From positions 1 to 64,000 of the IMG/VR virus record IMGVR_UViG_3300025652_000047: DNA of 64,000 nucleotides. One strand, given 5' to 3'. The notes under the pieces were generated by a model. That model was not told the DNA's origin. It was given only the letters and a program-made list of their open reading frames with translations, and searched no databases. Every line of letters begins with the position of its first letter. Position 1 is the stretch's first letter. Positions 9,663-42,071 of this stretch are shown here, piece after piece. Origin of the DNA: a virus. A program made the translations under genes and the position numbers.

Positions 9663-9999
9663 CTTGTTTGTTATACCAGTTAATAAATTCTATTACTAAG
9701 GAATATACCTCTTCTATGATTGTACAGGAGCCAGGAAAGTTACCATATAAAGTTAAATCTTTAGTTACTTCTTGATAAAAAAGACATCTATGACCTGTTA
9801 TACACCAAATTTTCTCTACTACAGGCATTAACCAATTCCAATCTTCATCGAATAGTAGTTCGTCAAAACAGTTGCCGTCTTGTTTATCATAGACCATCTG
9901 TGACATCCTCATCTCATTGTCGTACCATCCAATGTTCTTTTCTTTAGTGAATCCCATAAATTCAGCTATACGTTTATTACTTTCTACTACATTATCCAT
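9655..9999 (-). CDS. Unknown 114-residue protein
   Basis: A compact protein with several Trp (IGWYDNEMRMSQMVYDKQDG; DEDWNWLMPVVEKIWCITG), resembling the small Trp-rich phage/Bacteroidota proteins that follow a 'window of a numeric or structural' pattern without catalytic residues. It overlaps the ATP-grasp gene by 8 bases and is probably cotranslated. No function is assigned. Confidence 0.5.
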   Translation of the reverse strand: MDNVVESNKRIAEFMGFTKEKNIGWYDNEMRMSQMVYDKQDGNCFDELLFDEDWNWLMPVVEKIWCITGHRCLFYQEVTKDLTLYGNFPGSCTIIEEVYSLVIEFINWYNKQDG

Positions 10000-10942
10000 C
10001 TAGCTGTTCATTTTTAAAAAAGAAAGACTTTGCTTTAGTCCATTCTCTCCAGTTATAATGAGGTCTTCTTTTATCAGAATTAAATAACCAATTCCAATAC
10101 CTACCCCATCTTTTAGCAGTAGTAGGGCATGAATTTAAAGTAGGAGCTGTATTAACTTCTAATACATATGCTTTATCATCCTTGAACATTACATCTACAC
10201 CTCCACAATCAAGCCCTAGAGCCTCTACAGCGTGTACTGATTGCTTTAATACATCTAAGTAAGGTTCTGAATCATTCCATCTTACAACTTCAAATCCAGC
10301 TACATCATCTTCTACATTACCACCTCTATTGGCTGCTATATTCCAAGCTATATTACCATTGTTAGGGTTTTGCTTCTTCATGAGTCTAAGTACTTTACCA
10401 TGCCCTACATGTGTTCTAAATTCTAATTCTTTATCTATGAATCTAGCATAGTAGTACTTTTCAGGATTATAATGTGCATTAAACTCTTGTATACTATTAA
10501 GTATAATAAAGTTTTTACCTTTACTATGTACAAAAGGTCTGCATATAATAGGTAAATGTTTCTTTTTAATGTTATTAGGATTGATACTCTTAGGTACTCT
10601 AACTTCAGACTCATTCATTATAACTCTAGCTAATCCTTTGTCAGTTGCATTCCGTAATCCAGGGATCTTATTATAGACTATAGAACTAGCATTAGTATCT
10701 ATTGGCTCTTGGGAACCCCATCTGAGTACTACATAATCAGAAAAGTCTAGAGTATCGTCTTTTACTTTCTTATAGTTTTCTTTACTTTCTTGACTAAATA
10801 CTCTATAGTATTTTACAAATTTACCATTTCTTTTAGTAAATTGTCTTCTTTGTACTAGATTACCTGTATCACATGATTTAAACGCTTCTTTAGTCGAAGG
10901 TCTTCCATGTTTACCTGTAAGTACTACTTTTACTTTTGTCAT
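9992..10942 (-). CDS. RimK-type ATP-grasp ligase
   Basis: A 316-residue ATP-grasp protein. ATP-grasp enzymes join a carboxylate to an amine through an acyl-phosphate. Motifs include the basic ATP-binding segment LPIICRPFVHSKGK (about 130-143), FIDKELEFRTHV, and the metal site GGVDVMFKDDKAYVLEVNTA, which gives the Asp and Glu/Asn ligands. The N-terminal 90 residues are a basic pre-ATP-grasp region. Its closeness to two amidoligases, two amidotransferase folds and a gamma-glutamylcyclotransferase suggests that it builds or extends a peptide or isopeptide. The substrate is unknown. Confidence 0.85.
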   Translation of the reverse strand: MTKVKVVLTGKHGRPSTKEAFKSCDTGNLVQRRQFTKRNGKFVKYYRVFSQESKENYKKVKDDTLDFSDYVVLRWGSQEPIDTNASSIVYNKIPGLRNATDKGLARVIMNESEVRVPKSINPNNIKKKHLPIICRPFVHSKGKNFIILNSIQEFNAHYNPEKYYYARFIDKELEFRTHVGHGKVLRLMKKQNPNNGNIAWNIAANRGGNVEDDVAGFEVVRWNDSEPYLDVLKQSVHAVEALGLDCGGVDVMFKDDKAYVLEVNTAPTLNSCPTTAKRWGRYWNWLFNSDKRRPHYNWREWTKAKSFFFKNEQLDG

Positions 10943-10949
10943 TTTAATA

Positions 10950-11594
10950 TTATATTAATAAATGATTATTAAAAACCTCTTCTTTAAATATAGGAGGTAA
11001 ATCTAATTCAATGTCTACAGCTATATCTTCTGGATATCCAAATTCTGCTTTTAGTAAATTTCTAAAGCCAGGTCTACCTTTATTATCTTTGTGCAATACA
11101 AGGTTATCCTGGTTTCTACTTTCTATTTTACCTTCTTTAATTATTTTTGGAAACAGCAAGTTTATATCTTCTACATTAGGATATAACTGACTATACTTAC
11201 CTTGTAAAAAATTTAGTTTCATATCTTCATATGGTAATTCTACCACTATCATATGGTAATTTTTATCGTAAGTATAATCAGTTACAAATCCTTTCTTTTG
11301 TTTAATCATAGCTAATCCTGCAGTAAACTTATTAGTGTAATGTTCCTTACTAGCATATTTATTTTTATGGTAAGGTCCAAATACATCTACAAGTATATAA
11401 AAGGTATTATCTAAGATTGATTTCTCATTAAATTCTAAATCTCCAACTCCAGTTGCAAGTATTGTAAACCTATTTAGTATATAAGCGTAAATACTTTTGT
11501 TAGTTAATTGTATACTGGGGTATAGGTATTTAAGACTTTTATTCTGAAATCTCTGTCCTGGTTGAATCTTTATCTGGTTGTTCTTGCTCCACAT
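10950..11594 (-). CDS. Unknown 214-residue protein in the amidoligase region
   Basis: A mixed alpha/beta protein with many aromatic residues (MIVVELPYEDMKLNFLQGKY; LLFPKIIKEGKI). It is located between the ATP-grasp gene and a PD-(D/E)XK nuclease gene, and overlaps the latter by 56 bases. It resembles no named family that I can identify. Large uncharacterised proteins of this kind occur in phage replication operons. It might be the substrate or a partner of the neighbouring ligases, but nothing in the sequence demonstrates that. Confidence 0.5.
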   Translation of the reverse strand: MWSKNNQIKIQPGQRFQNKSLKYLYPSIQLTNKSIYAYILNRFTILATGVGDLEFNEKSILDNTFYILVDVFGPYHKNKYASKEHYTNKFTAGLAMIKQKKGFVTDYTYDKNYHMIVVELPYEDMKLNFLQGKYSQLYPNVEDINLLFPKIIKEGKIESRNQDNLVLHKDNKGRPGFRNLLKAEFGYPEDIAVDIELDLPPIFKEEVFNNHLLI

Positions 11595-12042
11595 ACGTTG
11601 TTTTTGCAGTAACTACCTCTTTCATTAAGGCTTTCCAGTCTTTAAATGTCATAGTAATAAGATGTTCTTCTGGCTTATTACCAAATTTATGCATTAAAAG
11701 TCTAGGAGCCTTAAAGATTGTATGGTCGGAAGGAAAATACTCGCTCAATTTCTCGTGCATTTTTCTAAATTCAACATCAGCTTTAGGTCTTTGTTTAAGA
11801 TACCCTGCTTTACATTGAATTAGAAAATCTAAGTTGTCTGTAATTGGTCCATTAGGTGCAATATCTACACAACAATCATCTAGTAATCTACTACATGCTC
11901 TAGTTGTTTTTGCTTTGGTCCAACCCAAATCCTTGAGTACATTCACGATCATTCTTTCATAACCATGTCCTTTTCTTCTACTCTTCTTTGCTCTAGCAGA
12001 TGCTTCTGCTTTACTCTTTAATTTAATGTTTTCCATGTGCAT
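11539..12042 (-). CDS. PD-(D/E)XK nuclease, Holliday-junction-resolvase-like
   Basis: A 167-residue protein with the restriction-endonuclease fold layout. A basic N-terminus leads to GHGYERMIVNVLKDLGW (helix with conserved Glu), then DDCCVDIAP (catalytic Asp) and FLIQCKAGY, where Gln-Cys-Lys replaces the usual E-x-K. Conserved Arg residues precede the Asp. Resolvases of this type cut branched DNA during replication or before packaging. The Q-x-K variant occurs in some active relatives. A loosely similar nuclease is expected in crAss-like genomes. Confidence 0.65.
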   Translation of the reverse strand: MHMENIKLKSKAEASARAKKSRRKGHGYERMIVNVLKDLGWTKAKTTRACSRLLDDCCVDIAPNGPITDNLDFLIQCKAGYLKQRPKADVEFRKMHEKLSEYFPSDHTIFKAPRLLMHKFGNKPEEHLITMTFKDWKALMKEVVTAKTTYVEQEQPDKDSTRTEISE

Positions 12043-13424
12043 TGTACTTCTTTATCTTTTAAAAAAATCTCGTAATAAGGAATCTGAGCTGAATAATAAT
12101 TTGCCATCTCAGTTTTTCTATCACATACATATTTCAACAAGTGACTTTGAAGATCTTCGTTATTTAATTCTTGTAAAATATCTTTAAATGTAATTTTAGT
12201 ATTACTTTTTAAGATTTCTAAACTGTTATTTGTAGCAAATTTAATAAAAGCTATATTCAATAACAGCCAATTTGATACTTTACCGTAATTTAAAGTACCT
12301 TCATGATACCTAAATTCAATAGTTCTACTGTCTGTAAAAAAGTAGTTATTCATATTAATTATAGAATATCTATTCGTATAGTGCCATTTTTGATTACCAT
12401 TCTTAGAGTGAGTTCTATTTTCTGGATTACTTCTTTCAGTTGGAGGTACTCCATCATTCCAAAAAGTCCAAATATCAGTAAAAGCTTTATTTAAACTTTC
12501 TTGATTAATAGATCCATCTTCTAATATATAATTTCTACCATAAGCTAAATTTAACTCAGGTAGTAATTTACAGTAATCTTTTGCGTCTCTACCTCTTCTA
12601 GTTAATGCAGATAACATTTTTTTAAATGGAGGAAACATAGCGTTAATTTCATTTTGAAATCTATACATCAATAAGTAGAAAGATACTGCAAACTCTTTTG
12701 TTCTAGGTAAATTTCCAATATGAATATGAGTACTAGTTTTCTCATCTACACTACACTGTCTAGATAAGTAATAACATTGTTCTTTTAGAGAAGATAATTC
12801 TCCACTCATAGGTACTGTTATATACTCATAACCACCTATACTTCCATCTTTTACAGGTACTAGATAAGTATCTTTCATCATATTTGGATGTAATGCACCT
12901 TCACTAGTTTCAAACTCAACTCCGTAAGTATAATCAAATACTTCATTTACTTTTGATAAATGCTTAGACTCTTGTATATACTTAGCCCATGCTATATCAA
13001 ATTGTGCATTGTTATCAGCACCATATAATCTAGTATTAAACTCTCCATAGTTTTCAACTGTTGCAGTTGGACTTGCATGAAAGATATCAGTTCCTGCTCT
13101 ATAGTAGTATTTTGGAAATTCTCTATAATCTTTAATATAAAATCCATCTATAGTTTTTACAGTATACTTATCTTTTCTAAAATACTCAAGTTCTCCATTA
13201 GGTTTTATTAGCCCTTTAACAATAGCATCAGTTAATCTACAATAAAGTTGCCTTTTCTTATTATAGTAACAATCAGTACTTTTATACCAGTATAAAGATC
13301 CTACTTTATAAGCTTCTCCACTATCTAATTTATTTCTCTTACCTTTAATGTACCACTCATTATCTATGAGGGTACATTTGTCTTTTAAAGTTTCATATCC
13401 ACTCTTCGTAATTACTGTTAGCAT
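12018..13424 (-). CDS. Amidoligase (glutamine-synthetase-like fold)
   Basis: A 468-residue protein. After an N-terminal accessory region of about 165 residues, the amidoligase core shows YGVEFETSEG (metal-binding Glu residues), VKDGSIGGYEYITVP (Asp and Glu in the usual D-G-S...E order), TSTHIHIGN (nucleotide-phase His pair) and TIEFRYHEGTLN (Arg and Glu). These are the hallmarks of amidoligase family 2. Such enzymes form amide or peptide bonds with ATP. The N-terminal extension is unusual and may bind the substrate. The gene overlaps the class II amidotransferase gene by 32 bases. Confidence 0.85.
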   Translation of the reverse strand: MLTVITKSGYETLKDKCTLIDNEWYIKGKRNKLDSGEAYKVGSLYWYKSTDCYYNKKRQLYCRLTDAIVKGLIKPNGELEYFRKDKYTVKTIDGFYIKDYREFPKYYYRAGTDIFHASPTATVENYGEFNTRLYGADNNAQFDIAWAKYIQESKHLSKVNEVFDYTYGVEFETSEGALHPNMMKDTYLVPVKDGSIGGYEYITVPMSGELSSLKEQCYYLSRQCSVDEKTSTHIHIGNLPRTKEFAVSFYLLMYRFQNEINAMFPPFKKMLSALTRRGRDAKDYCKLLPELNLAYGRNYILEDGSINQESLNKAFTDIWTFWNDGVPPTERSNPENRTHSKNGNQKWHYTNRYSIINMNNYFFTDSRTIEFRYHEGTLNYGKVSNWLLLNIAFIKFATNNSLEILKSNTKITFKDILQELNNEDLQSHLLKYVCDRKTEMANYYSAQIPYYEIFLKDKEVQCTWKTLN

Positions 13425-14694
13425 ATTCTTTATATTTTTCTAATGTTTCAAATATTACAGTCCCTTCTGGGTCTAAATCTTCTTTGTCAAATTCAAATAG
13501 TATAGAATCCATAGTTTTATGTAATTCTTCTATTTGGTCCATAAAATCTTGTGGCGAATAATATGCCATTTTTATGAATTGTCCTTGATCAAAATGGTAA
13601 TAAGTTTCTGATCCTATAGGTTGTATTATGCCATCAGCAAGTTCATCTTGATTAAAAAAGTAAGCATTTACATCTGCATTGTAGTATAACATATGGTGAG
13701 AAATATCCTTACTAAGTTGATCGTACTCTTTATCTATTAATCCTATATTTAAAGCAGTAGTTTCTAACGGATTTTCAGAAGGTTTATTGATAATATCAAC
13801 TAAAATTCCATTTATAAATTTCAATTTACTTTGAAAGTTATTCTCATGCATACTTACAATACTACCATCTTTAAGAAAGTTACCAACTCCAGTGTATAGC
13901 TTATTATCTTTATAATATGCTCCTCCACAGTATAGTACTTTACTACTACTTTTATTTAAAGAATCTAAAGTAGAAAAAGAAAGATTGTAAGGTAAAGCTA
14001 ATGCTTGTCGTTGTACTTTTGCTAATTCTACAAGTGGATAATTTCTATCTATAGGAGTTTCTTTTGTAACAGCAGCTTTATCATTCATTGTTATTAAAGA
14101 ATTACATAAAAAATGACTAACTACATTACCCTCAGCTATAACTTCTAAATCTCTTTCTAAAGTAGAAAAATACATAGTAGTACCTATATAACAAAAATGT
14201 AAAGGTCTTTCTACTTCTCCACCACTTTTACCAATCCAAAAAGTTGTAGAAGTTTTGTGCCTATATACAAAAGTTGCTCCACCAGTATAATATTGTAGAA
14301 ATTCAGTATTACCTTCTTTCATTAACTTTAATAGGTAACTAGTATCATTACTTCCAAGGTCACCAGATATACCAGTAATTTCTTCTAAAGCAAATTGGTT
14401 TTTAATAGTACCATTTAATACAAATACATGGTCACCATCTACTAGAGGCTGTGCATTTTTAACAGTATTAGCACCACTAGACCCTTTTCTAGTATGTCCT
14501 AATACAAACTTATTAGCTTTCTTAGGATACTCAGATTCTAAAGTAAGAGAATAAAAATCTCCAAGAGATTTTGTACATTTTTTATTAGTATAAATACCAG
14601 CAGAGTCTCCACCTCTTTCGTTATTTAATACACCAAGTATTTTAATCTTATTTAAATCTATGTTTGAGCCTATAGCTCCAAAAATTCCACACAT
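13393..14694 (-). CDS. Class II glutamine amidotransferase (Ntn hydrolase)
   Basis: A 433-residue protein beginning MCGIFGAIG. Once Met is removed, Cys becomes the N-terminal nucleophile. Other class II GATase signatures are NERGGDSAG, GHTRKGSSG and VFVLNGTIKN, followed by the YTGGATFVY strand. It is a stand-alone glutaminase domain with a C-terminal half of unknown type, rather than a GlmS, PurF or AsnB fusion. It would release ammonia from glutamine, or hydrolyse gamma-glutamyl amides, for the adjacent ligases. The stop and next start overlap (13393 to 14694 to GGCT). Confidence 0.85.
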   Translation of the reverse strand: MCGIFGAIGSNIDLNKIKILGVLNNERGGDSAGIYTNKKCTKSLGDFYSLTLESEYPKKANKFVLGHTRKGSSGANTVKNAQPLVDGDHVFVLNGTIKNQFALEEITGISGDLGSNDTSYLLKLMKEGNTEFLQYYTGGATFVYRHKTSTTFWIGKSGGEVERPLHFCYIGTTMYFSTLERDLEVIAEGNVVSHFLCNSLITMNDKAAVTKETPIDRNYPLVELAKVQRQALALPYNLSFSTLDSLNKSSSKVLYCGGAYYKDNKLYTGVGNFLKDGSIVSMHENNFQSKLKFINGILVDIINKPSENPLETTALNIGLIDKEYDQLSKDISHHMLYYNADVNAYFFNQDELADGIIQPIGSETYYHFDQGQFIKMAYYSPQDFMDQIEELHKTMDSILFEFDKEDLDPEGTVIFETLEKYKEYANSNYEEWI

Positions 14695-15050
14695 TATAAA
14701 TTTTGTTTTTTAGTTATAAAATCAACCCAATCTCCATTTTTAATTAGATTATTTGGATTGGTAAATCCCATATATGGATACAATTTACCTTGTACTCCAT
14801 CTATAGTAATATCTACTTCTGCATATCCTGCTCCTATTTCCATTCTATGGATCCCTTCGTAGTCTTCTTGGCTTACTTCTATTAAGTCAACTACTAAGCT
14901 TCTACTACCTTGTAAAATGCCTGGGTAAGATCCTAAAGAATATAAATCATAACCATGTACAACATGGCTACTTATGTGATTTAAAGATTTAATATGGTTT
15001 GCATTATACATCCCTGGTCTTAAGCTTCCGTATACAAATATGTTTTGCAT
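14694..15050 (-). CDS. Gamma-glutamylcyclotransferase-like (AIG2/GGCT fold)
   Basis: A 118-residue protein with the family opening FVYGSLRPGMYN (substrate-binding YGSL loop), SYPGILQG, and the catalytic-type Glu in HRMEIGAGYAEV. GGCT enzymes cleave gamma-glutamyl amines to 5-oxoproline and a free amine. Its place between the class II GATase and the COOH-NH2 ligase suggests that it trims gamma-glutamyl isopeptides produced in the same pathway. Translation is coupled to both neighbours. Confidence 0.85.
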   Translation of the reverse strand: MQNIFVYGSLRPGMYNANHIKSLNHISSHVVHGYDLYSLGSYPGILQGSRSLVVDLIEVSQEDYEGIHRMEIGAGYAEVDITIDGVQGKLYPYMGFTNPNNLIKNGDWVDFITKKQNL

Positions 15051-15877
15051 GATTCTTCTTTTAAATAATTAATATTATTTTCGTCACAATATAGTCTAGC
15101 TGCTTCTACATCATAGTTGTTAATGATATCTTCTATAGGAGAGTATTCATTTATATCTTCCCTAATATACATAACATCTTTATTTAAGTCTTCACCTAAT
15201 TCAAGTTGTTGTATACAAGTTTCTATACCTTCCCATACCCATTCAATTAACTTAGCACTAGATAAGAAATAAGCTCCTAAAGATCTACATTCAATACCGT
15301 AATCTTTAAATCTTATTTCTCCTGCTCTGCCGTATAATTCTCTACGACCTCTTTCTGGATCTAATAAAATAGAAGGTAAGGTAATGTATTTATCAAACAA
15401 CTTAGCTAATCTTTCTTGTGTACCTATGTCTGTATTTTCATCTTTATCAGCAATACTTTCATGTCCAAAGTGAATATGAAATCCTGCAGATCTTAAATTA
15501 GGGTTTGTAGATTGTACAGGTGTACTCATACCTCGTTTGTATACATTCATACTGCTTTCACACCCAAATAAGGTAGCTTCAGCAGTATTTAACTCTTCAT
15601 CTGGGTATATTAACATTGAATTAAAACTATACTCATACTCAGGTATCATTTCAGCTACAGTAGTTAATCCATATTCAATATAACTAATGAATTCTTCAAA
15701 ATTATTTACTGGAGGTTGTGTAATTTCAACATTTACATTGTCTTCTTGTCTTGCACATCCATTACCAATACTTAAAGGCTCATCTTTAGTGCCTCCTATT
15801 TTACCTACTATAGATACAGGTATACCATTTTTTGCTATAGGAATTTCATAATCAGTCCCAATTTTCCAATCTTTCAT
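15020..15877 (-). CDS. Phage COOH-NH2 ligase (GS-like amidoligase)
   Basis: A 285-residue protein with the distinctive phage COOH-NH2 ligase pattern: IGTDYEIPI at the start, IGGTKDEP, ARQEDNVNVEITQPP (Glu, Asp, Asn, Glu), GFHIHFGHE and EIRFKDYGIECRSLGAYFL at the C-terminal half. These correspond to the metal and nucleotide ligands of glutamine-synthetase-like ligases. A second, distinct amidoligase beside the one at 12-13.4 kb implies two successive ligations or two substrates. It overlaps the GGCT and C26-type genes. Confidence 0.85.
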   Translation of the reverse strand: MKDWKIGTDYEIPIAKNGIPVSIVGKIGGTKDEPLSIGNGCARQEDNVNVEITQPPVNNFEEFISYIEYGLTTVAEMIPEYEYSFNSMLIYPDEELNTAEATLFGCESSMNVYKRGMSTPVQSTNPNLRSAGFHIHFGHESIADKDENTDIGTQERLAKLFDKYITLPSILLDPERGRRELYGRAGEIRFKDYGIECRSLGAYFLSSAKLIEWVWEGIETCIQQLELGEDLNKDVMYIREDINEYSPIEDIINNYDVEAARLYCDENNINYLKEESCKTYLYTEA

Positions 15878-16556
15878 CTAATGTTGTTTTTATTAAATAA
15901 TCAAATAATTTTGTATTTTCTAACTCTTCCATATGACCTTGGAATCCAAATATATTCTTACCTTTTACTCTGAATAATTCTAAATTGCTTTGCTCTTTTG
16001 AATATGCAATAGGACTAATCTCACTAGGTAAGGTTTTTAAATTTACAGTCTGATGGTGTAATGAATTAACTCCTGAAGTATATCCAGGAATAAATTGTAA
16101 ATAATTATACTTTTGGGTTAACTTTAAGTTCTCAACTATTTTACCTCTGTTCCCTTTGTTATTGTGTTGAGTAAAAAAAGAACCCTGAGTACTAGATGGA
16201 AGTTCTACATGTTGATTTAATGTGCCTCCATAATGTACATATAAGTCTTGAAATCCACGGCAAACTCCTATTATTGGAATATTAGCCTCAATATAATCTG
16301 GAAGAATATATTGTGAGAAATAATCATATTCTACATTAGGTGCTCCACTACCAATTCTATATTCTCCATATCTAAGAGGATTAATATCTGCACCCCCAGT
16401 AAGAACTATTGCATCTAAACTTTTATTAACTCCTTCATATGGAGCTATTGATTGTAAAGATCCAAACTTACTAAAGTATGTAAGATATGCTTGATTAACT
16501 TCGTAAGCTCCTTTATTAGTTTTATTTGGATATAGTATTCCTATTTTGTAATGCAT
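15852..16556 (-). CDS. Class I GATase-fold gamma-glutamyl hydrolase (peptidase C26-like)
   Basis: A 234-residue protein. The nucleophile elbow is PIIGVCRGFQDL with the Cys, and LTGGADINPLRYG is typical of PuuD-like enzymes. The C-terminal dyad is FGFQGHMEE (His-x-Glu). Peptidase C26 members hydrolyse gamma-glutamyl bonds. It can remove or recycle the product of the neighbouring ligases. A second, more canonical copy lies at 22949-23584, so the phage encodes two such hydrolases. Confidence 0.85.
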   Translation of the reverse strand: MHYKIGILYPNKTNKGAYEVNQAYLTYFSKFGSLQSIAPYEGVNKSLDAIVLTGGADINPLRYGEYRIGSGAPNVEYDYFSQYILPDYIEANIPIIGVCRGFQDLYVHYGGTLNQHVELPSSTQGSFFTQHNNKGNRGKIVENLKLTQKYNYLQFIPGYTSGVNSLHHQTVNLKTLPSEISPIAYSKEQSNLELFRVKGKNIFGFQGHMEELENTKLFDYLIKTTLDERLENWD

Positions 16557-16879
16557 TTCATTTCATTTATGTTAGTAAAATAATTATGCAATTTAAGAAT
16601 TGCTAATCTAGCATCTTCAATGCTTAAATTAAAAGTATCATTATCTTTTAAGTTTAACTCATCTATATTTACAGGGAGTTGTAACTCAAAATCTTTATTA
16701 TCTTGTATTTTAGAATATAGATTACCATCTGTATCACATTTTTCAATAGATATAGTATGTCCATCACGTCTATTTATTGATAAAGTCCAACCGTCTCCTG
16801 CTTGATTAAACCCTGCGGTAGATCCTCCTAAATTAGATATAGGGTAAAAATTATCTTTCATTTTTATATAATATATCAT
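16541..16879 (-). CDS. Unknown 112-residue protein
   Basis: Mostly beta-rich N-terminal part (FYPISNLGGSTAGFNQ; WTLSINRRDGHTISIEKC) with a C-terminal helix (IEDARLAILKLHNYF). Overlaps the amidotransferase-fold hydrolase upstream and the primase gene. It may be a small single-strand or ligand-binding accessory to replication. No family is recognised. Confidence 0.5.
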   Translation of the reverse strand: MIYYIKMKDNFYPISNLGGSTAGFNQAGDGWTLSINRRDGHTISIEKCDTDGNLYSKIQDNKDFELQLPVNIDELNLKDNDTFNLSIEDARLAILKLHNYFTNINEMKCITK

Positions 16880-17798
16880 TTGTGAATTTTTTTAAAGTTT
16901 TAAAATCTTTTGTTATTAAATCTGCAGTATCATTACCTTTAGGTAAAAATAGTTGTTCTGCATTTAGCGTTCTAGCTAATAATCCTCCTTGAGTAATACC
17001 TGTTTTATCATTATCATATAGAACATATTTATTCTTATATTTATTAATATCTAACCCTAAATCTCCATACTCTTGTTGTTTACCAATAGCTTGTACATTA
17101 AATACTTTCCATAGTATTAATGCATCTAATTTGCTTTTGGTAATTAATATATGAGAATCATTAAATTCTTCAAGATAACAACTGTTGAAAATTTCATATT
17201 TACAATTACTCCACCATTTAAATTCTTGATTTCTAAAATACAATTTAGTATTTCCTGTTGGAAATGTAAAAGCTAAGGTTGGTATTTTGTTTGGATCGTG
17301 AAACCTATTCTTAAGTATTACAGGATCTTTCTTTGTATTTGTCCAATAAGCTTTTACTAGGTGTATTTCTGAATCAGAATTTAATATTTCTGGAGTTAAA
17401 TGTAATTCAGATAATATATTATTATCATCTGTAAAGGGTATAGTTTTGGTAAAAATAGTAATATTCTGTTCTACTGAAGGTTTATAATCAATAAGAGAAG
17501 GTGTAAAAGTATTAACCACAGTATCTATTAGTTCTTGTGTAGTACTTAAACCTTCTCTTATTTTGATTATATCAAATGCAGTAAATGCAAGTTTATTATT
17601 ATAAGTAGCATTATCTATAAAAAATAATACTCCGTTATGATAATTAAACCTGCATCCTGCATTAGTATCATGAGTCCTTAATAAACTGGTATATCTTTTA
17701 GTTAGGCTAGGATATCCTCCTATATACTGACTAAATATATCTTCTTGATATTTTCTAAGCAGGTAAGCTAAGTCTAGAGATATTCCATTGATCATCAT
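16851..17798 (-). CDS. DnaG-type primase-like protein with TOPRIM domain
   Basis: A 315-residue protein. The C-terminal half has TOPRIM features: SHILITKSKLDALILWKVF, where the usual catalytic Glu is replaced by Lys or displaced, then KYVLYDNDKTGI with the Asp-x-Asp pair, and LFLPKGNDTADLI as the third acidic segment. The N-terminal half may be a catalytic or DNA-binding portion without an evident zinc-binding CHC2 motif. The genomic place beside DnaB-like helicase and SSB genes supports priming. The replaced Glu is worth noting because it would normally be essential. Confidence 0.7.
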   Translation of the reverse strand: MMINGISLDLAYLLRKYQEDIFSQYIGGYPSLTKRYTSLLRTHDTNAGCRFNYHNGVLFFIDNATYNNKLAFTAFDIIKIREGLSTTQELIDTVVNTFTPSLIDYKPSVEQNITIFTKTIPFTDDNNILSELHLTPEILNSDSEIHLVKAYWTNTKKDPVILKNRFHDPNKIPTLAFTFPTGNTKLYFRNQEFKWWSNCKYEIFNSCYLEEFNDSHILITKSKLDALILWKVFNVQAIGKQQEYGDLGLDINKYKNKYVLYDNDKTGITQGGLLARTLNAEQLFLPKGNDTADLITKDFKTLKKFTNDILYKNER

Positions 17799-22948: not shown

Positions 22949-23584
22949 TTAAAGGTCGTTGTTTAATAATTTGTGAGAATATGCAGTTACTATACTCTTG
23001 AATCTTTCTGGTGCTCCTTCATGTTCAGGATGCCCTTGCACTGCTAACATATGAGTTTCTGGATAGTATACTATTTCTGGTTCAATTTCTGGCTTTTCAA
23101 ATCCATGAGGTAGTCCTTCGTATACTTTAGTTAACTCAGATGCAAAAGCTAATATCTTGTACTGATGTTTCTTTAAGTTAAAAGGATACATCATTTGATG
23201 GTGAGTACTAGTTACATCATAAGTTTCTTTAAAATGAGTATCTGTTACAGGATGGATATAAGATTGTCCTCTTACATTTTGAATTAACTTACCACCTGAA
23301 TATACTGTAGCAAGCTGTGCTCCTCTACAAATACCTAATATAGGTAACTGTAAAACTATAGCTTTAGCTATTTCTTCACATTCATTGATATCTCTAGTAG
23401 GGTTATAACTAGTAGTTGGGTGTTTAGTTTCATTATATAGTGCTGGCATTACATCTGCTCCACCTGTTAATATAACTATATCTGCTTTTTCTAAAGTATC
23501 TACTACAATTGAATTTTGGATTGCATTTTTATATGTAGACTCTCCACCTATAATATATACATTAATATTGTTATTTTTACTCAT
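22949..23584 (-). CDS. Class I GATase-fold gamma-glutamyl hydrolase, second copy
   Basis: A 211-residue peptidase C26/PuuD-like protein. ILTGGADVMPALYN leads to PILGICRGAQLATVYSGG (nucleophile Cys), THHQMMYP and MLAVQGHPEHE, giving the His-Pro-Glu catalytic end. It is clearly homologous to the 15852 product but closer to canonical. It overlaps no gene and lies between the SF2 helicase and the polymerase. Two such hydrolases imply two points of gamma-glutamyl bond breakage. Confidence 0.85.
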   Translation of the reverse strand: MSKNNNINVYIIGGESTYKNAIQNSIVVDTLEKADIVILTGGADVMPALYNETKHPTTSYNPTRDINECEEIAKAIVLQLPILGICRGAQLATVYSGGKLIQNVRGQSYIHPVTDTHFKETYDVTSTHHQMMYPFNLKKHQYKILAFASELTKVYEGLPHGFEKPEIEPEIVYYPETHMLAVQGHPEHEGAPERFKSIVTAYSHKLLNNDL

Positions 23585-40300: not shown

Positions 40301-40711
40301 CTAGCTTTAAGACCACAGCATGCAAAGGGAGATGGCATATACGAAAAAAATGTTACTCAATTTGGATATATGGTTGGAGCTAGAGGAGCAATAGGTAAAT
40401 TAACTATGGTAGATGATACTAATGATTTTTTATTATCAGATGTAGTTAGGAGTAATGGTACAAATAAATTAATTGAGACTATACCTTGTATATTTTTAAT
40501 TAGACAAATAGCACAGTTTACATTGAATGGTAACTTTGATGCAGTATCATCTTTAATTTTAGTACCTACATTTATTTCAGAACAAGAGTCCTATATGACT
40601 CAAATTAGAAAACAAAAAGAAACAAACAGATTACAGTTTTTATCAACAAATAGCGCAATACATGACAAGAATAATAGACACAAAGGAAAAGGTATTAACA
40701 GGCTTATCTAA
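37316..40711 (+). CDS. terL: Terminase large subunit, interrupted by an in-frame intein
   Basis: A 1131-residue precursor. After removal of a 338-residue intein (residues 196-533) the mature TerL would be 793 residues. The P-loop of the packaging ATPase is rebuilt at the splice junction as GSRGGGKS, and FFVHDPYVSDNQEDG resembles the C-terminal nuclease motif I. The N-terminal 190 residues include Trp/His-rich stretches such as WERQFGGWMHMPG. The gene overlaps the chaperonin gene by 50 bases. TerL translocates DNA into capsids and cuts concatemers. Confidence 0.9.
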   Translation: MKEYKHWNCGQPDWIKIDNIKEFNLDEVKIFHPQDPRYVEYWKQEKKYCIEGRWERQFGGWMHMPGCLYFYGKFGIIVDTDKFTKVTEKIKPLIQDLEFEQAFMFWEARGFSGYIDDDEYTSDNMWFKFNEKGLPTTEEIEKMGDSQRTAVLNLINNNGNLKEYLTPRKNLRRIAEKPLGRPLFQNDAKNKDTMGCHAKDSKFRMYDGSVKEVFDIKIGDALMGPDSSPREVNEILTGENVMVKITPKYGDAFKITPNHILRVRETNKHTNEKLEYDLPVWEYLNKSDSKKSFIEIIDRNKIEYPEVPLVLDPYFIGLWLGDGFKREKLICINQGKDKEILNWLLEYCNSKDNLSYTTSVSKNGLSNGFTTRFRLTDSNLSGKGNYWAKTFRNNKHIPNEYLINSLDNRLKLLAGYIDSDGCYEKKSNRYTITSVDLDLLTQTQELARSCGFRAEINKPSKTGITDSLKYNLRIIGDINSIPVKLSYKKATGIREKFHRNTFTTQVLPPEKFYGVEVDKDHLYMLADGNKDHNSRGGGKSFFEAVAVQLYTLTFDGATEYIIDQVQKVETCIGSGDTDKSGELVQKVVDAMNEFAINPKLGAWGQQGDSDWTPNPFYRDMNGPTNAGNKQKGGWVHKYEKKINGRWVDGFGTGTRMFHVSYSSNKKAGAEAGAGGRYNVSTVEEKGLTILLIMLWNSNRATVMRNGVQFGVQSFLGTSGNAELVLPSKEMFTTPHEFNLVAYPDVWEGTGDLGFFIPAYMTYRQFKDVNGNTDVKAAREHWLKGYLAAGESANPKTLRMYCMNYPDIPSHMWVTDAQYLLPYEEAIDRERHLMDKKLYQTIGTAIDLRWDTSKQNGVTYDIVHNPQPFYDFPIRKDMERMDGEIMMYQTPQEIRGVVPNDMYFFVHDPYVSDNQEDGASLGVTYGFLNPKYSVTHDGSQLVCSYIGKPKGGKKAYYQNLEKLLAFYGNPFRGLAYEANRGEYCRSYFEKKGKLHLLALRPQHAKGDGIYEKNVTQFGYMVGARGAIGKLTMVDDTNDFLLSDVVRSNGTNKLIETIPCIFLIRQIAQFTLNGNFDAVSSLILVPTFISEQESYMTQIRKQKETNRLQFLSTNSAIHDKNNRHKGKGINRLI
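37901..38914 (+). mobile_element. Intein with LAGLIDADG endonuclease, in TerL
   Basis: It begins with Cys196 (CHAKDSKFRMYDG) and ends with Asn533 (DKDHLYMLADG then DHN), followed by extein Ser. Splicing block B is TPNHILRV. The homing endonuclease motifs are IGLWLGDG and LAGYIDSDG, each with its catalytic Asp. Block F is FYGVEVDKDHLYM. Insertion lies inside the conserved Walker A loop, a well-known intein hotspot. Confidence 0.92.
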
Positions 40712-42071
40712 AGCTGCAGATGTAGTAGCCTCCACAATGGGAGCACATGGTAAGTATGTACTTATAAACAAGAATGGAGAATCTAGGTTTACAAAAGATG
40801 GAGTATCAGTAGCAGAAGAAATTATACTAAGAGATCCTGTAGAAAATATAGGTGCACAGTTAGTTATTAATTCTGCTAAAAAAACAGTAGAAGACTGTGG
40901 GGATGGTACAACTGCAACTTCAGTATTACTACGAGCAATGGCTAATAGAGATATTCCTACTAATACAAGGGAGTATGTATCTAAATTAAAGGAAGATATA
41001 GAAACAGTTATTTCCAAAGTAGAGTCAAGTTCTAAAGAGTTAAAGACTCTAGATGAATTAGAATCTATAGCCTCTACGTCTGGTAATTCTAAAGAAGTAG
41101 GACAAATACTTAAAACTGTATATGAGCAAGTAGGATTAGAGTCTAGAGTTACTTTAGAAGAAGACGAAGATTCTACAGAAACATATTATGAAGTTGCTAG
41201 AGGAGTTGAATTTATAGGTAATACAGGATATATTTCTGAGAGGTTTAAAAATCAACGTAATGGATACTGTATATTTGAGAATGCATTAGTTATTATAGAT
41301 GAAAATAAAAGTTCAGACCATACTACATATACGGAAGCTATAAAAGCTGCCAATGCTATGGGAGCACCTTTAGTAATAATTTCACCTAATTTTTCTAATG
41401 CAGTAATATCTACTATAGCTGCAAATATGTCTAAGGGATTAAAAGCTTGTTTGGTAAGTGCTCCAGGTTGGGGTAGAAATCAAAAAGAGAATTTTAGAGA
41501 TATAGAAGCTCTTAGAAATGAAAAGTGGCTAGTAGATAAAATAGTTATTACTCCAGTAGCATTTACTATCTTCACAGAGAGCAAAGAAGGTATAGATGAG
41601 AGAATCAAAGAAGTAGAAGATTCATTCGATGGGTATATAGAAGACCATGAAGTAAGATTTGCTGAAGTAAGAATAAATAAACTAAGAGGTTCCACTGCTA
41701 TTATATATGTAGGAGGAATAACAGAAAAGAACAGACAAGAAGAGTTTGATAGAATAGAAGATGCTCTAGGAGCTGTACAGACAGCCATAGAGGGAGGATA
41801 TGTAAAAGGAGGGGGTATCGCACTAGCTGAAGCCGCAAAAGGCTCTCAGATTGAGGATATATGTTTCTCTCCAGCATTCCAGATTAAAAGTAATGCAGAG
41901 TTAGACCAGACTATTGAAGAAGTCAATGTGCTTACTAAGAACCCATGTAATCTTTTAAAAGAAGGTATTATAGATCCTACTCCAGTAGTAGTTCAATCCT
42001 TAAAGAATGCATTTGCATCTTATGAGTTACTTTTAAACACAAATTATATACTAAATAATGAGAGCATTTAA
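40662..42071 (+). CDS. GroEL-like chaperonin, reduced
   Basis: A 469-residue group I chaperonin homologue. Equatorial ATP site: RFTKDGVSVAEEI, DPVENIGAQLV and CGDGTTATSVLL (with the catalytic Asp in GDGTT). Other family matches are SAPGWGRNQKENFRDIEAL, IEDALGAVQTAIEGGYVKGG and EGIIDPTPVV. It is about 80 residues shorter than GroEL, lacking the conserved NCGEEPSVV-to-NAATEEYG stretch before MGILDPTKV and the GGM tail. The gene overlaps terL and the portal gene, so it is expressed with head assembly. Confidence 0.9.
   Translation: MTRIIDTKEKVLTGLSKAADVVASTMGAHGKYVLINKNGESRFTKDGVSVAEEIILRDPVENIGAQLVINSAKKTVEDCGDGTTATSVLLRAMANRDIPTNTREYVSKLKEDIETVISKVESSSKELKTLDELESIASTSGNSKEVGQILKTVYEQVGLESRVTLEEDEDSTETYYEVARGVEFIGNTGYISERFKNQRNGYCIFENALVIIDENKSSDHTTYTEAIKAANAMGAPLVIISPNFSNAVISTIAANMSKGLKACLVSAPGWGRNQKENFRDIEALRNEKWLVDKIVITPVAFTIFTESKEGIDERIKEVEDSFDGYIEDHEVRFAEVRINKLRGSTAIIYVGGITEKNRQEEFDRIEDALGAVQTAIEGGYVKGGGIALAEAAKGSQIEDICFSPAFQIKSNAELDQTIEEVNVLTKNPCNLLKEGIIDPTPVVVQSLKNAFASYELLLNTNYILNNESI

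Follow-up and report, generated by a model that had tools for sequence, protein, structure and literature searches.

A crAss-like version of a widespread phage amidoligase cassette, tentatively linked to modification of a cell-wall precursor

The DNA studied here, a window of 64,000 nucleotides, comprises positions 1 to 64,000 of the IMG/VR record IMGVR_UViG_3300025652_000047, which is 78,947 bases long. At positions 9992–16556 of the minus strand it carries eight overlapping or abutting genes, six of which encode enzymes of amide chemistry. This block is a crAss-like version, with a rearrangement specific to the window, of an already known and widespread phage cassette. A preliminary description, made from the letters of this DNA alone, had placed six such enzymes in the interval; Pfam and PHROG profiles recovered all of them there, on the minus strand, together with the proposed gene overlaps (1–56 nt between neighbouring genes, from 10950 to 16556). 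The two other genes, coding for a nuclease and a 214-aa protein, separate the ATP-grasp gene from the remaining five enzymes. The genes of the block, and a second C26-like gene elsewhere in the window, are the following:

15852–16556, minus strand: Peptidase C26 / class I glutamine amidotransferase (GATase)-like gamma-glutamyl hydrolase, 234 aa (Pfam C26, 6.4e-24)
15020–15877, minus strand: phiEco32-type COOH-NH2 ligase (GCS2/glutamine synthetase (GS)-like), 285 aa (PF14395, 26.4 bits; phrog_3815, 3.6e-60)
14694–15050, minus strand: gamma-glutamyl cyclotransferase (GGCT; GGACT/AIG2-like), 118 aa (Pfam, 9e-13)
13393–14694, minus strand: class II GATase (N-terminal nucleophile type, Cys2 after Met), 433 aa (Pfam GATase_6, 7.6e-9)
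12018–13424, minus strand: Amidoligase_2, 468 aa, with an N-terminal extension of ~167 aa and a glutamine-synthetase-like core (Pfam, 9e-8)
11539–12042, minus strand: RusA-like nuclease, 167 aa (phrog_244, 6.4e-7)
10950–11594, minus strand: 214-aa protein, relatives of which adjoin exonuclease genes in other phages
9992–10942, minus strand: ATP-grasp carboxylate-amine ligase, RimK-like, 316 aa (phrog_2599, 3.6e-19)
22949–23584, minus strand: second C26-like hydrolase, 211 aa, adjoining the DNA polymerase gene (phrog_7218, 8.7e-35)

Neither the rest of the window nor the 15 kb by which the record extends beyond it yielded any more cassette genes.

The Pfam scores lie above the curated cut-offs for Peptidase_C26 (85.4 against 20.5 bits), GGACT (49.3 against 22.8), GATase_6 (36.1 against 27), Amidoligase_2 (32.7 against 22) and COOH-NH2_lig (26.4 against 25). 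The ATP-grasp protein remains under the RimK cut-offs (Pfam PF08443, 19.7 against 21; NCBIfam TIGR00768, 27.7 against 143.4) and its profile matches RimK structures at 8.8e-15; judged by these scores, it is an ATP-grasp ligase but no canonical RimK. Active sites were checked in alignments with 8–12 distant phage homologues per enzyme. The COOH-NH2 ligase keeps D9/E11, E51, H134/H136, R189, E196 and R198, with 22 invariant columns over 13 phages, and the class II GATase its Cys2, HTR, NG and D motifs; the GxExE, HxH and EFR columns of the amidoligase are invariant or almost so. The K, D250, E262 and N264 columns of the ATP-grasp ligase are kept, as are the YGSL motif and the catalytic Glu71 of GGCT. 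In both C26 copies the Cys nucleophile and the H-x-E motif can be read off the sequences (GVCRG and HME in the copy at 15852–16556). Loss of catalytic residues, which had been named beforehand as evidence against the pathway, did not occur in the alignments of the window copies, and the six enzymes look intact and active.

Searches of solved structures by sequence gave PurF and GlmS as the nearest structures for the GATase and the YtfP family for GGCT, and nothing useful for either GS-like ligase. For the C26 protein of the block the nearest NCBIfam family is gamma-glutamyl-CDP-amidate hydrolase (6.7e-10, under the cut-off). The second C26 (phmmer, 3.1e-35 to the phage cr108_1 and 5.1e-27 to CVT22) resembles the C26 proteins of these other phage cassettes more than the first copy does. 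The amidoligase was modelled with AlphaFold2: the predicted local distance difference test (pLDDT) score is ~90 in residues 1–40, mostly 80–96 in the core and low at ~67–147. The core model matches glutamine synthetases, YbdK and glutamate-cysteine ligase (best Foldseek E value 8.4e-3), with Z 11.9 over 244 residues to the GS superfamily and Z 11.7 to YbdK. The predicted fold, with the conserved E/H/R active-site columns, is that of a glutamine-synthetase-like carboxylate-amine ligase, in agreement with what had been proposed. The suggestion that the N-terminus of the amidoligase serves as a substrate did not hold up: it is a conserved region of crAss-like amidoligases and is partly folded in the model.

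In PMC5498523 and PMC11945000, which cite Hardies 2013 and Iyer et al., such a gene set goes by the name of a putative "peptidoglycan modification cassette" or module; its predicted roles are the formation of three unusual linkages within the peptide side chains and the prevention of superinfection. The preliminary description was right that no function had been settled; descriptions of the cassette, and its name, nevertheless go back to 2009/2013. The genes that define it (COOH-NH2 ligase, Amidoligase_2, class II GATase and ATP-grasp) are all present and co-directional in the window, together with one GGCT and two C26 genes.

We asked how constantly these genes accompany each other in other phages. 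A single-sequence scan of viral contigs with the COOH-NH2 ligase returned no relatives; an alignment-based scan detected 350, the best 80 of which were fetched. The amidoligase alignment was too variable to serve as a query. Relatives of the ligase are present in at least 308 sequenced phage records, phiEco32- and LUZ24-like phages of laboratory strains among them. The collection of bacterial genomes contained only nine, every one on a contig of a metagenome-assembled genome and most with the rest of the cassette. For the linkage counts we took the 60 loci in which the ligase anchor was flanked by more than 6.5 kb on either side, near-duplicates being kept. The GATase and the amidoligase were present in 60/60 of these loci, the ATP-grasp ligase in 56/60, C26 in 47/60 and GGCT in 29/60. 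In the reverse test, 41 full loci anchored on the ATP-grasp gene contained the GATase (41/41), the amidoligase (39/41) and the COOH-NH2 ligase (34/41). Five ATP-grasp-anchored loci with no detectable COOH-NH2 ligase (L141, L147, L139, L114 and L180) contain, complete or as a fragment, a second gene for a class II GATase. Each family was found in only 2–6 of 80 control loci anchored on ribonucleotide reductase (RNR; 1.18 Mb), and four of these controls (L185, L186, L188 and L192) have cassette genes together. The clustering is far above chance. Moreover, the distance matrices of the ligase, the GATase and the ATP-grasp protein correlate (rho 0.45–0.76; 0/500 permutations in a Mantel test). Taken together, the linkage counts and the correlated distances indicate that the block is inherited as one pathway. 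The earlier proposal of a single amide or gamma-glutamyl pathway is borne out to this extent: the enzymes travel together across unrelated phages, with all catalytic residues kept.

The cassette recurs in Steigviridae, in phiEco32-, LUZ24- and RIO-1-like phages, in Grimontviridae and in Zobellviridae. Two gene orders predominate, C26–ligase–phrog_4877–amidoligase–GATase–ATP-grasp and GGCT–ATP-grasp–C26–ligase–GATase–amidoligase; the window has an order of its own, with GGCT between the ligase and the GATase and the ATP-grasp gene shifted downstream. Three patterns emerged that we did not find described in the literature. The first is an exchange of hydrolases: C26 and/or GGCT are present in 58/60 loci and neither in 2/60, and the two tend to stand in for one another (Fisher p 0.004). 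This suggests a pathway in which a gamma-glutamyl group always has to be taken off. The second concerns the phrog_4877 protein, of ~200 aa, encoded between the ligase and the amidoligase in 55/93 loci (for example L018:10765-11370). It has a conserved RxPxRQWxRGI motif and its model (pLDDT 93) an SH3-like N-terminal part; among PDB structures, a search by fold returned weak SH3/tudor-like matches and none that was confident. Where phrog_4877 is absent, the amidoligase has an N-terminal extension of 133–291 aa (one truncated copy apart), and where it is present the N-terminus is of at most 105 aa, with one exception. The idea that phrog_4877 became fused to the amidoligase at its N-terminal end found no support at the sequence level: the distribution is complementary, but the two share no detectable similarity (hhalign probability 0.2). 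The complementarity follows lineage and may be explained by one event. The third pattern is seen upstream of the ligase, where 37 loci encode, at a distance of up to 5 kb, divergent proteins that share a C(C/F)G motif (49/378 open reading frames (ORFs) there, against 31/907 in the other parts of these loci; p 1e-9, a value that ignores relatedness). They often occur as tandem pairs, many with a C-terminal N-x-NSGN (L018, L015, L022, L030, L002, L004, L008, L009 and others), and those of them that were searched had no significant Pfam match. Neither phrog_4877 nor C(C/F)G proteins are encoded beside the cassette of the window.

The terminase, portal and head proteins of the window match PHROG families (1.1e-47, 5.3e-64 and 1.6e-32, respectively) that we take to be crAss-like, and several of its replication genes cluster with Steigviridae genes. 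Cellulophaga phage phi14:2, placed in Crassvirales, Steigviridae in the databases, is the sole DNA-level match to the cassette among sequenced phages. We take the virus to be crAss-like on these matches. The RNR genes of another contig (L184, IMGVR 3300022072_000590) are 100% identical to those of the window, indicating that the same virus is present in another assembly. Two further genes of the window are:

16851–17798, minus strand: DNA primase homologue, clustering with the annotated primases of phi14:2 and cr108_1
40662–42071, plus strand: GroEL-like chaperonin, encoded between the terminase and portal genes of the late module (phrog_5725, 2.2e-78)

The primase homologue lies on the upstream side of the block, a single 112-aa gene intervening, and the cassette is found at the primase in relatives as well. 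Promoter-like sites around the cassette were no more frequent than in shuffled sequences and give no information on operon limits. The nearest annotated viruses, phi14:2 and the crAss-like cr108_1 (Steigviridae, Asinivirinae), share with the window the link to the primase, the extended amidoligase and the order ligase–GATase–amidoligase. However, in the stretches examined phi14:2 has no C26 and cr108_1 no GGCT, whereas the window has both, and the ATP-grasp gene is upstream of the ligase in these two viruses but downstream in the window. The cassettes of RIO-1-, phiEco32- and LUZ24-like phages (PSA-HP1, U17) likewise combine two GS-like amidoligases, a class II GATase, an ATP-grasp ligase and GGCT and/or C26, in co-directional genes amid replication genes. 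The window differs from them by the absence of phrog_4877 and C(C/F)G proteins, the N-terminally extended amidoligase, the two C26 genes and the position of the ATP-grasp gene beyond the nuclease and a recombination-linked gene.

The 214-aa protein, which had been proposed as a substrate, was ruled out as substrate or carrier by the position of its relatives next to exonuclease genes. In Flavobacterium phage Fpv1 one relative comes after a gene annotated as an exonuclease, and so does another in phi14:2 (hhalign E 1.3e-7, probability 94). In L185, the homologue follows an exonuclease-like ORF (a candidate call), and a homologue of the nuclease lies just before that ORF. By this gene context the 214-aa protein is assigned to a recombination module and is no cassette member. 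The nuclease shows the E...D...QCK motif of PD-(D/E)XK resolvases and is probably outside the amide pathway. The two would thus be recombination-linked genes that now part the ATP-grasp gene from the other five. A LysW-like carrier beside the ATP-grasp gene was also looked for, but the small genes there appear unrelated by eye.

What does the cassette make? Ligase-added gamma-glutamyl groups that are later taken off by C26 or GGCT are known from the Puu putrescine pathway and from butirosin biosynthesis (BtrJ/BtrG); the phage set departs from these pathways in its pair of GS-like ligases and its class II GATase. As a whole the locus is best explained, although tentatively, as a crAss-like amidoligase cassette that modifies a cell-wall precursor by gamma-glutamyl or amide chemistry. 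We infer the following steps and their order. Soon after infection begins, the class II GATase would free ammonia (or a gamma-glutamyl group) from glutamine for the GS-like Amidoligase_2, and the COOH-NH2 and ATP-grasp ligases would put further amide bonds on carboxylates. C26 and/or GGCT would then take off a gamma-glutamyl group used as donor or as temporary protection; their mutual replacement among the loci fits such an obligatory removal. The likeliest substrate would be a peptidoglycan precursor still in the cytosol, modified on its peptide, and the new wall, unlike that of the host, might exclude superinfecting phages or be prepared for lysis by the phage. Transcription of the cassette genes right after infection is reported for phage HP1 (PSA-HP1) only (PMC7082346) and suits an early change. 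Among the matches listed, the isolate hosts of ligase-bearing phages are nearly all Gram-negative.

The assignment of the substrate is the weakest step of this explanation. A cell-wall precursor comes first among the candidate targets, with somewhat less than an even chance, followed by a soluble metabolite or a protein; a cell-wall peptide had already been named among the possible targets in the preliminary description, in agreement with the published hypothesis. One alternative, unlikely but deserving attention, is that the product is a soluble gamma-glutamyl metabolite (a glutathione-like tripeptide, a gamma-glutamyl amine or a modified polyamine), recycled by C26/GGCT and of use to phage metabolism, to the supply of nitrogen or to the packaging of DNA. 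A GCS2-like and an ATP-grasp ligase together follow the logic of glutathione synthesis, and the relatives of C26 and GGCT act on small gamma-glutamyl compounds (a PuuD match, gamma-glutamyl-CDP-amidate hydrolase and the YtfP family). However, the amidoligase and the class II GATase occur just as regularly as the ligase pair, and a glutathione-like pathway needs fewer enzymes. A role in nitrogen metabolism has been proposed for phage ZRK32 (PMC10945688), but the growth effect reported there is not tied to the cassette genes. In addition, ZRK32 (L003, OP650935.1, "Poriferisphaera phage") matches Pseudomonas phage SCYZ1 (L010) with 75–87% DNA identity over nearly the whole compared stretch, so that its assigned Planctomycetes host is doubtful and may be wrong. 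About as unlikely as the metabolite reading is that the cassette tags a protein (of the host ribosome, RNA polymerase or the phage) with glutamyl or other residues, C26 and GGCT being the erasers and the target being recognised by the SH3-like cassette protein or, in crAss-like phages, by the amidoligase N-terminus. The RimK-like ATP-grasp ligase, the predicted SH3-like fold of the cassette-linked phrog_4877 and the complementary amidoligase extension would agree with this; yet extension and phrog_4877 are dissimilar in sequence, their complementarity by lineage may go back to one event, and gamma-glutamyl-cleaving partners are usually small-molecule enzymes.

A more specialised form of tagging, in which the SH3-like protein or the amidoligase extension would present the target and the fast-evolving C(C/F)G proteins would be tagged substrates or extra transferases, with a peptide or gamma-glutamyl tag not known in cells, appears improbable. 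Hypermodification of phage DNA with amide-linked groups is the most improbable of these readings. Most loci do place the cassette beside primase, polymerase or uracil-DNA glycosylase genes, but the DNA of the cassette phage tf is cut by RsaI, HpaI, EcoRV, SmaI and HaeIII (PMC3517423) and the LUZ24-like U17 is sensitive to 11 of 16 enzymes (PMC11945000), and it is this cleavage by many restriction enzymes that disfavours it; nor was a recurrent base-hydroxylating or glycosyl enzyme seen in the annotated cassettes. Modification of a cell-wall precursor, the reading we prefer, has several points against it. No biochemical or genetic test of the cassette was found in the accessible literature, and the cassette has no Mur-ligase or lipid II-binding domain. 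The nearest sequence relatives of the ATP-grasp protein are RimK-type protein or cofactor glutamate ligases, which equally indicate protein tagging, and the cassette lies amid replication genes rather than lysis genes. Finally, the cassette proteins of the window are only 24–43% identical to those of the relative L185, while RNR is 74–79% identical; this would reflect either fast evolution or exchange, and enzyme specificity may vary accordingly.

The cassette and the hypothesis of wall modification were thus known before; the present analysis adds the linkage counts, the interchange of C26 and GGCT and the extra conserved proteins. The rest of the set is present in nearly all long-flank ligase loci examined, and these counts, together with the hydrolase swap and the additional proteins, provide concrete handles on a phage pathway that has long been annotated.

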